Below, in pieces: positions 700 through 63,721 of a DNA stretch of 64,000 nucleotides; positions within the stretch are counted from its first letter, which is position 1; the number at the start of each line of letters is the position of its first letter. Source of the DNA: Nannobrachium achirus (lineage: Eukaryota > Chordata > Actinopteri > Myctophiformes > Myctophidae); assembly GCA_963921795.1 (NCBI GenBank), contig OY997655.1, positions 6,721,043 to 6,785,042 on the forward strand, given 5' to 3'. The translations under genes were made by a program, and so were the position numbers. A model generated the notes under the pieces. The model had not been told where the DNA came from and ran no database searches. It saw only the letters and a list, made by a program, of their open reading frames with translations.

Positions 700-3600
700 G
701 TATGTTTTGTTTTACTTTAAGAAAGAATATGTTTTTAGTCTGTCTGTCTGTCTGCCTGCCTAACTGTCTGTCTGTCTGTCTGCCTGTCTGAAGAGGAGCA
801 CACACCGGACGCGGGCAGCTGCACAGCGTCGCAGTATTGACGCGCGTGACGGCCGGACTACACCAAGGCTTTTCACTTGCGTCAGTGCGTAGCATTTACT
901 GCGTGGGCACAACGAGTTTGGAAAGATCCAATATATATCGGCTGGGCTTCACCAAGGCTTTTTACGCGCGTTAGTGTGTATTAAGGCTGCCAATTTAATA
1001 TTCAAATTTCGAATATTCTTCGAATAATACTTTTTTGAAGAGGGGGGCTTGTTAAAGTTATGGGTATGGTGAGTATGATATGAAATGTAATAATCACAGT
1101 AATGTGTGTGTGTTTTTACAACTTGATAAATATTTGTTGGTATTGACCCTGTAAAAAATATATATATATATAATAATAATATTGATATTTGAATATATTC
1201 GATATTCGGGCCAATTTCTAAGACCAATATTCGAATTTCTTTTCTGAGGAATATTAGCAGCTCTAGTTTGTATACGGGGCCATGGTCTCCCGCACATACC
1301 CCCTCCTTGGTGTAGCCAGGAGCTTTTCGCACACGCACAGACAGCGCACGCATGCGTGCGCGTTTTCTGGTGTAGCCCGGCCGTATCATGATACCGGCTA
1401 CACCAGGCTCACGGATAGCGCGAGCCCCGGATACGCATGCTGTTCTATTTTGTACACACGCGTATGTGTTTTGTACACAGACTCCTCAGGTCTCCCGCGC
1501 AAATACTCCCTCCTTGGTGTAGCCAGGGGCTTTACGGACAGCGCACGCATGTGCGCACATTTTCTGGTGTTGACCGGCCGTGAAGCATGCGGTAACACCA
1601 ACTGGATGTGGCGCGCTGCCACGTGGCGTAGACTGTCCATTTCCTCCGGTGGGGAGACCTTTCCATTGAAAATAATGGGGTGTATGTTTTGATGCATCGC
1701 GTCTGCGCCACCTCCACATCCGGTGTGCTTCCCTTGATTATAGTCTCATAAACTATTAGACAGAAGAGCTCATATCTCTTGTGCACAATGTCATCAAGGA
1801 CCTCAATTCCAGAATAGTTTTCAAATTGAGCAACAACTACATGTTTGTTGTTTTTGGGAATTAATAACTGTAGCACAATCGTTCTTCCAGGCTATGGGAT
1901 AGGCATCCTGAGACAATGGACCGGGACTAGCCAATCAGGGGGCTACATGTCTGGTCTATGAGATCCACAATACTAACCAATTATAATGCTGTCAAAACAA
2001 TGTTGTGTATCTTCCTCTGATGAAGGACTCACACAGTTAAAACCAACACTTACAGTTCAAATCACTGCCTTTGATTGACTGGTGGTACAAATATAATTGA
2101 TATAAGATATCGATTAATACAATTAAAGAAAGTTTGTTGGGAATTAATGAAAAGTAAAAAAAAAAGAAGAAACATTTTTTTTCTTGTAGTGTAACAGTTA
2201 AAGTAAAAATATTTAATTAATGAAATTGATTATTAAAATAGTTGATAATCTGATAAGATAATGAATCCGTACAGCTGATCTGCACACGCGCGCTCGAACG
2301 AGCGTGCATGCAAGCGCACACACGCACACGCACACGCACGCACGCACGCACGCACGCACGCGCGCGCGCGCGCACGCACGCACGCACACACACACACACA
2401 CACACACACAAATTTGTATTGTAGATGTATTGTTCCACTGTTACATGACTCTAGGTAATAATGTCACTGCATACATCACTGTACTCTACTGACCTCTAGT
2501 GGACACACCTTAGTGTTCATTTAACTTGTATCAATGTGATTATTACATATTAACAACATCATAGAATTACCTGGACATTGTTGCTTTGTTCCTCAACCAC
2601 AACAAAAACACATGTTCAAAATGTTTGAAAATAGCAGATCTACAAGCTCACAATGTGTCACATCACATCGTGAGCTTGTAGATCTGCTTGTTTAACTATT
2701 TGTTGTTAAAATGTCTAATTTAATCATAAGTGTTTAAATAAAAAGGCATCAAAGTGAGAGTAATCAATGTTTTCTCTGACAGGACTGACTGACATCAGGA
2801 TTGTGTTGTTGGGAGAGCAGTTCTCTGGGAAGAGTTCAGCAGGAAACACCATTCTGACAGGAAGTGGTTTTAAAGCAGGTCAGAGGTCAGTGCAGTGTGA
2901 GGTGAGACAGGGTGAAGTAGCAGGGAGACATGTGACAGTGGTGGACTCACCAGGCTGGGTCTACAACAGTCCACTACAGGACACCTCAGAGATGGACAAA
3001 CTGGAGATCCAGAACAGTGTGTCTCTCTGTCCTCCTGGACCACATGCTGTTCTTCTGACGGTTCCTCTTCATGAAGCATTCACCAAAGCACAGAGAGTAG
3101 CATTAGAGGAACACATGTCACTTCAGCCAGAGAGTGTGTGGAGTTACTCTATGATTCTGTTCACCTGGGCAGACCTGCTGGGACACAGAAGCATTGAGCA
3201 GCACATTGAGGCTGAAGGTGAAGACCTCCGCTGGCTCGTTGACAAATGTGGAAACAGGTATCATGTCCTCAACAACCAGAAGACAGATGTCACTCAGGTC
3301 ACACAGCTTCTGGAGAAGGTAGAGGACATGGTGTCAGGAAACACAGGTGGACACTATGAAGATGATGGAGATGAGAAGATGTCAGAGAGGAAGAGGAACA
3401 TCCAGGAACGTGTCCACACATTCATGACCAAGACACACAGACAAAGAACTGCTCTGAAAGCTCTGTTTGAAGGTGATGATTATATATATATGTGTGTGTG
3501 TGTGTGTGTGTGTGTGTGTGTGTGTGTGTGTGTGTGTGTAATTTTGTTAGCCTGCCTCTCCTTTCATATCTTAATAATTTAATATCAATATTTTTCATTT

Positions 3601-63721: not shown

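Follow-up and report, generated by a model that had tools for sequence, protein, structure and literature searches.

In a 64,000-nucleotide stretch of Nannobrachium achirus DNA (hereafter, the window), a hairpin-forming palindrome recurs that, judging from its flanks, appears to be an internal module that several short, nonautonomous DNA transposon families have in common, four of them of hAT type and one piggyBac-like. We consider it probable (about two chances in three) that the module is moved whole inside these transposons, that its variation is mostly inherited or unpaired, and that occasional template switching recopies one arm from the other and flips the loop.

The window is teleost DNA (genome size 1.66 Gb) and harbors genes of the AIG1/GIMAP-type GTPase kind, together with a BACK-domain exon; among named proteins, the closest GIMAP relative shares 54% identity. 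The arm core of the palindrome, AGCAGATCTACAAGCT, matched the window 47 times with up to three mismatches, against 0.52 matches expected from shuffles. A first-pass annotation of this DNA had reported about 27 palindromes; counting by eye, we obtained 27 hairpin places as well (Table 1), but only 21 of them are two-armed, the other six being half or deleted copies (10,624, 17,418, 23,965, 44,188, 61,987, and 63,282). Moreover, a tandem duplication with an offset of about 33-34 kb pairs seven copies, as marked in the table; the 27 places are thus not independent, and about 20 loci are left. This duplication covers positions 1-54,271 and includes the AIG1/GIMAP-type genes.

Two of the hairpins that the annotation had singled out proved to be as described, i.e., the one with CTTACA/TGTAAG at 54,419 (54,418-54,492, perfect, with arms of 36 nt) and the one with perfect 43-bp arms at 55,646 (family C, 55,643-55,737, all 43 pairs perfect). 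Those given at 56,918 (family G) and 59,672 (family A) do exist, but each carries a single mismatch, at stem pair 6 (A vs G) and at pair 20 (A vs C), respectively; the CATGC/GCATG hairpin given at 49,614 is present at 49,623, but its right arm has one extra base. The copy given at 62,666 is not a compact hairpin, its second arm (62,781-62,805) lying 86 bases further on. On the minus strand, a long reading frame (55,579-56,070) runs through the family C hairpin; a similar hairpin-encoded stretch is found in nine unnamed public proteins, which places the element in further sequence records as well.

Table 1. Hairpins and hairpin-carrying elements in the window.
Feature	Position	Strand
Hairpin; duplicate of 36,732	2631..2690	
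Hairpin, pair-6 mismatch; duplicate of 37,886	3700..3764	
Half hairpin (left arm); duplicate of 44,188	10624..10648	+
Hairpin; duplicate of 45,912, left flank differs	12094..12157	
Short hairpin	12500..12546	
Family C hairpin, one arm deleted	17418..17458	
Hairpin in 399-bp hAT-type element (family H; target duplication 6/8); duplicate of 52,222	19598..19652	
Hairpin; duplicate of 53,642	20665..20715	
Hairpin of family A type, center deleted; duplicate of 53,867	20892..20930	
Half hairpin	23965..23989	-
Diverged hairpin	25549..25613	
Hairpin, center enlarged	32635..32719	
Hairpin; duplicate of 2,631	36732..36791	
Hairpin; duplicate of 3,700	37886..37950	
Half hairpin; duplicate of 10,624	44188..44212	+
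Hairpin; duplicate of 12,094	45912..45976	
433-bp hAT-type element (family E) around 49,623 hairpin; exact 8-bp target duplication TTCTAAGA	49497..49929	+
Family E hairpin (CATGC/GCATG)	49623..49680	
Hairpin; duplicate of 19,598	52222..52276	
Hairpin; duplicate of 20,665	53642..53692	
Hairpin of family A type, center deleted; duplicate of 20,892	53867..53905	
532-bp hAT-type element (family B) around perfect 54,423 hairpin; exact 8-bp target duplication	54275..54806	-
Perfect hairpin, B-T19 set (CTTACA/TGTAAG)	54423..54487	
Family C hairpin, 43 perfect pairs	55643..55737	
434-bp hAT-type element (family G) around 56,927 hairpin; target duplication 6/8	56779..57212	+
Family G hairpin; pair-6 mismatch common to other G copies	56927..56991	
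Family A hairpin; pair 10 = A-T, family mostly A vs G	59676..59740	
Family E copy, hairpin mostly deleted	61987..62011	-
Arms of family A type, 86 bases apart	62670..62805	
Half hairpin	63282..63306	-

Copies were drawn from the window, from 200 kb (one position on each of 20 contigs), from eight first-pattern loci, and from 80 chosen places. In its standard form the hairpin consists of 65 bases, that is, two 31-base arms and a 3-base loop; exactly this length was observed in 45 of the 72 paired copies, and the hairpin often continues outwards into mirrored sequence that is specific to the family (e.g., AGTGAAAA, GTGGAAA, or TTTGCCAAAA). The folding of five window copies gave -35 to -81 kcal/mol, with z from -9 to -19. 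Whole-genome pattern counts, all of which are lower bounds, retrieved at least 184,648 occurrences of the 16-base arm core (92,161 + 92,487; reversed control, 0) and at least 24,675 of one exact form of the inner hairpin half (control, 0). The tRNA search found none, one 22-base arm had no match in IMG/VR, and one hairpin had none in phages. Twelve prokaryotic loci bearing the arm pattern look like chance matches, because the 60 bases after each of them show no second arm. In the literature searched, no paper contained AGATCTACAAGCTCAC, and the further searches turned up related themes but no description of the hairpin family.

The comparison of flanks revealed that the hairpin is internal to longer repeats, and allowed 83 of 116 length-matched hairpins to be assigned to a family. 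The ends of families B, E, G, and H (CAGGGGTC.., TAGGG..) are those of elements that we take to be of hAT type, from the end motifs and from the length of the target duplication. Both ends were found in 12 of 19 copies of these four families, delimiting elements of 339 to 536 bp (the other seven copies are without one or both). Five of the 12 have exact 8-bp target duplications (L036_1118, L024_219, and the window copy at 54,423 for family B, the window copy at 49,623 for family E, and L036_9657 for family G), and seven have imperfect ones with 5 to 7 of 8 positions matching (6, 6, and 7 in three H copies). As regards family C, the left end was found and the right end was not in three copies, one apparent match agreeing at 1 of 8 positions. 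Family A, presumably piggyBac-like on the basis of the end motif (TTAA at both ends, CCC termini) and of the target site, is represented by one complete 600-bp element with TTAACCC ends at locus L013, which has one hairpin near each end, and by two further copies without one or both ends. Family A elements with two inverted hairpins were noticed at L013 1,059-1,563, L035 4,183-4,566, and L040 9,400-9,698, the hairpins being spaced 440, 319, and 234 bases from start to start, respectively. Hairpin-free versions of the elements were also sought, and the rows followed by eye (L035 near 8,380 and L036 near 7,300) look like deletion remnants.

The hairpin moves together with its element, as can be seen from an empty site for one copy and from target duplications for others. 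The 433-bp family E element splits one half of the tandem duplication at TTCTAAGA, and the other half, which is without the element, has at 19,085-19,092 an uninterrupted single copy of the related TTCCAAGA. According to these filled and empty sites, the element most simply arrived by the ordinary insertion of a whole element after the duplication.

The first-pass annotation had pointed out that differences between copies are mirrored on the other arm, and had proposed a covariation test of the arms, whose outcome upholds the observation. Over 39 length-matched hairpins from the window and the sampled loci, both-sided changes occurred at 18 of 31 stem pairs against 10.5 after shuffling, and the covariation score was 0.197, compared with 0.133 for shuffled pairings and no more than 0.073 for slid ones, with a control that keeps the relatedness between copies. 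After insertion, most mutations hit a single arm and remain unpaired: nine related copy pairs (six window duplicates, two L026 copies, the L037/L039 copies, and two L030 copies; the halves 10,624/44,188 were left out) showed 29 unpaired stem changes and no paired one, four of the 29 stemming from the differing left flank in 12,094/45,912.

Many mirrored variants are, in turn, inherited subfamily markers, as was shown for two of them. At pair 21, the genome holds the intact C-G at least 24,675 times, one-sided changes at least 562 + 490 times, and two-sided changes at least 1,885 times. Among the 50 two-sided matches listed out of these 1,885, 47 were A-T (G-C, T-T, and A-C occurring once each), and the listed doubles lay mainly on two loop backgrounds, with pair 27 being A-T in 31 and G-C in 14; one dominant state on mainly two backgrounds implies that most pair-21 doubles are one subfamily. 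The 54,419 variant (T-A at pair 19) has at least 200 copies in the genome. When 20 of the 50 listed were fetched, 12 had flanks that placed them in family B beside the window copy, which makes the variant a subfamily marker in that family; the other eight were spread over six other groups. In the inner stem of 124 listed hairpins, doubles were as much in excess at paired sites (23 vs 15.3 expected, a ratio of 1.50) as at unpaired ones (82 vs 54.2 expected, 1.51), so that there is no coupling in this CpG-rich part.

The linked subfamilies, the unpaired decay, and the inner stem without a paired-site excess are what would be expected if there were old subfamilies only, that is, if each mirrored variant had a single origin in two successive mutations of a source copy, and no arm were ever copied from the other. 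The annotation had named such an outcome as the one that would speak against its own proposal, with a few old subfamilies, each descending from one perfect founder, and with unpaired mutations within them. Much of this picture is indeed found, since mirrored variants are often subfamily markers and resident copies decay unpaired, but a minority of changes is mirrored and the founders were imperfect, arm differences being common to many copies: pairs 10 and 20 in family A, pair 6 in family G, and pair 6 in 6 of the 12 copies of the B-T19 set (family B has many unpaired states at pair 6). Together with the private doubles and the loop inversions in four families reported below, this makes descent from old subfamilies alone unlikely. 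A further excess, which we treat as weak, concerns T-A at pair 21, with at least 22 genome copies; the 20 copies fetched belong to family E (four), K (three), B (three or four), and other families. Twenty-two such doubles stand against about 1.2 expected, an excess that depends on an estimated one-sided count (roughly 350 one-sided T changes, taking the 33 that an eye count gave among 100 listed rows as a fraction of 1,052) and on a modelled age factor of 1.34.

The same shared arm differences persist through amplification, which indicates that the arms are not equalized every time an element transposes. It is evidence against the stem-loop model of Angel-type elements as a general route, in which a folded strand is copied and, as the model leads us to expect, the arms would be re-perfected. 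Strong folding and very high copy number would suit such hairpin-templated amplification, and the model has been published for a fish MITE (PMC12628747), but target duplications and the empty site denote whole-element insertion, and arm differences were passed unchanged to many copies; as a general route it is already largely refuted, and we regard it as extremely improbable.

One line of evidence for copying between the arms comes from changes private to one or two copies. Within the B-T19 set (12 copies), nine deviations are one-sided and two are mirrored and private, against 0.06 expected; at pair 6, L068 is mirrored relative to the commonest state of the set, yet one-sided relative to its nearest relative, L065. 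A broader test comprised 77 copies of families A, B, E, G, and K, with pair 6 and two copy-selection sites excluded and a rare variant defined as a letter that no more than two copies per family carry; the sample is partly enriched, as 40 fetched loci had been selected for mirrored variants. From 51 rare variants in the left arm and 63 in the right arm, seven same-pair private doubles resulted, compared with 2.1 under permutation (a count of seven was reached in 6 of 2000 permutations), and all seven are complementary. The 63 near-perfect copies gave six doubles against 1.45 (2/2000), and leaving out the CpG-rich inner pairs gave five against 1.37 (10/2000); family B alone, with three against 1.26 (177/2000), was not significant, and the inclusion of pairs 19 and 21, which had served to pick copies, raised the count to 14 against 3.1. 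Two of the seven doubles are weak: that of L046, a copy whose right arm is changed and in which seven pairs are mismatched, and that of L031_4592, a CpG-type change from C-G to T-A. About 90% of the private changes thus affect one side, the mirrored ones being a minority. For this minority, the data support the view that one arm is sometimes recopied from the other; some private doubles could be small unseen subfamilies. Of the annotation's two alternatives, arm-to-arm copying is therefore supported for this minority, and also by the inverted loops described next, whereas most differences are inherited or unpaired.

Loops are found inverted between oriented copies in four families. Among the 51 copies of families B, E, G, and K whose orientation was fixed by the flanks on both sides, 13 have a 3-base loop that is the exact reverse complement of the commonest one in their own family: AGC in 13 and GCT in eight copies of family B (n = 28), AAC in three and GTT in three of family E (n = 9), ATC in five and GAT in one of family G (n = 9), and AGC in three and GCT in one of family K (n = 5). 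These counts leave out the 33 of 116 length-matched hairpins without a family assignment, and five tandem duplicates had been dropped beforehand. A loop and its inverse differ in all three bases; the sole other three-step loop is GTT in family B, which is the reverse complement of AAC, also in B (the hairpin at 54,423 has GTT in family orientation, and L065 has AAC). No inversion occurred in the seven tabulated copies of family A, and L022_513, outside that table, has an inverted loop. A second sample was formed by 40 of 50 listed inner-half matches, after the omission by hand of two repeats of one sequence and eight matches with more diverged loops. It yielded AGC nine times, GCT three times, AGT twice, and TGT once in family B, and AAC five times, GTT three times, GAT three times, and five others in family E, several copies being oriented by one flank only. 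In one exact context, AGC of family B has at least 42 genome copies (16 + 26), the AGC orientation alone having been counted. Some of the flips could be small unseen subfamilies, and loops could also be flipped through recombination between the arms or between two copies.

In yeast quasi-palindromes, template switching homogenizes the arms and inverts the spacer, and inversions arise mostly in repeats that are already perfect (PMC8604942). Arm homogenization together with loop inversion thus represents the published signature of template switching, for which reason we take template switching as the most likely agent here. The mechanism that we favor would run as follows. Whole elements, hairpin included, would transpose as units, presumably through transposases acting in trans, and many mirrored variants would in this way be inherited as subfamily markers; mutations arising after insertion would mostly hit one arm and remain unpaired. 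As long as a hairpin is near-perfect, replication may sometimes switch template between the arms, so that a tract of one arm would be recopied from the other and the 3-base loop might be inverted. Over long lineages of source copies, such slow homogenization would render one-sided changes mirrored, and families would come to differ in a paired fashion.

Selected RNA pairing is not needed in this explanation. The annotation had considered it, and it gained no positive support beyond the folding. In a wider form, pairing would be selected in source copies, either because the stem forms an RNA hairpin (processed dsRNA, or the precursor of small RNAs) or because the folded DNA serves as a signal. 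This would be in line with sequences that change between families while pairing is kept, with folds far stronger than those of shuffles, and with the open reading frames carrying the family C hairpin in unnamed sequence sources; yet no Rfam family was matched in the window at the gathering score among 4227 models, resident copies decay unpaired, and loop inversions are not predicted by it, so that we judge it very unlikely. A mirrored pattern among repeat copies should not, on its own, be taken as evidence for a selected RNA structure, because the descent of subfamilies and slow copying between arms produce it as well.

As for similar systems, the human MADE1 is a short palindromic MITE, near-perfect and of high copy number, itself a mariner derivative. 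Our hairpin shares with it the near-perfect short palindrome and the high copy number, but MADE1 stands alone, whereas ours lies within larger elements that belong to other superfamilies. In Angel, a zebrafish MITE, the inverted repeats persist despite sequence divergence. Angel (Izsvak et al. 1999, J Mol Evol 48:13-21) is like our element high-copy, short, and able to fold on itself as a single strand (PMC12628747 and PMC2579443), and the stem-loop model for it is attributed to Izsvak et al. in the first of these. Compared by description alone, our palindrome differs from Angel in being an internal 65-90-bp module found across different transposon ends, with target duplications. The annotation's statement that no named family behaves in this way was therefore too strong, both Angel MITEs and quasi-palindrome template switching having been described. 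Foldable fish MITEs such as Angel are already known; what is new is one hairpin across different transposon families, and its flipping.

The yeast quasi-palindromes share with our hairpin both arm homogenization and the inversion of a short spacer; unlike that system (PMC8604942), ours is one palindrome whose inner half occurs at least 24,675 times in one vertebrate genome, which allows events to be tallied against a shared background. Palindromes that are likewise mobile or scattered have been reported from Rickettsia, where copies of the palindromic element lose arm identity over time, and from nematomorph mitochondria, where repeat conversion and template switching are discussed; these lie in bacterial or mitochondrial coding sequence, whereas ours lies in nuclear hAT-type and piggyBac-like elements (PMC6649704). 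Tens of thousands of very similar palindrome copies in a vertebrate nuclear genome amount to a natural assay of template switching, in which a single background serves to count loop flips, mirrored changes, and unpaired decay alike.

The palindrome may also be a site of breakage or exchange. This is suggested by arm-deleted copies (17,418, 61,987, and L036 near 7,300), by a chimeric copy at L038 3,957, which belongs to family B on its left side and to family H on its right, and by families C and C2, which share the hairpin together with flanks of roughly 100 bp to either side of it and differ in their ends; L046 looks chimeric in a similar way to the L038 copy. That transposons with unlike ends carry the same hairpin prompts one to ask by what route modules travel from family to family. 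Because hAT-type and piggyBac-like elements share the hairpin, chimeras switch family inside it, and the ends of C and C2 differ, one might think of a transferable module that crosses unrelated transposon families via template switching or recombination and boosts the success of the elements carrying it, a reading that we hold to be doubtful.

Locus L038 contains a local duplication (3,505-7,070, offset 3,049 bases) with hairpins at 3,957 and 7,006, whose left sides are the same and whose right sides differ (H vs B), as if an exchange had taken place inside the hairpin. Finally, the family C hairpin region sits in two different larger repeats and, by eye, seems to have inverted ends of its own (ATCGT..TGTC.GG..GAAACCT, at L036 387-450 and L038 191-255); it is perhaps a further nested short element.
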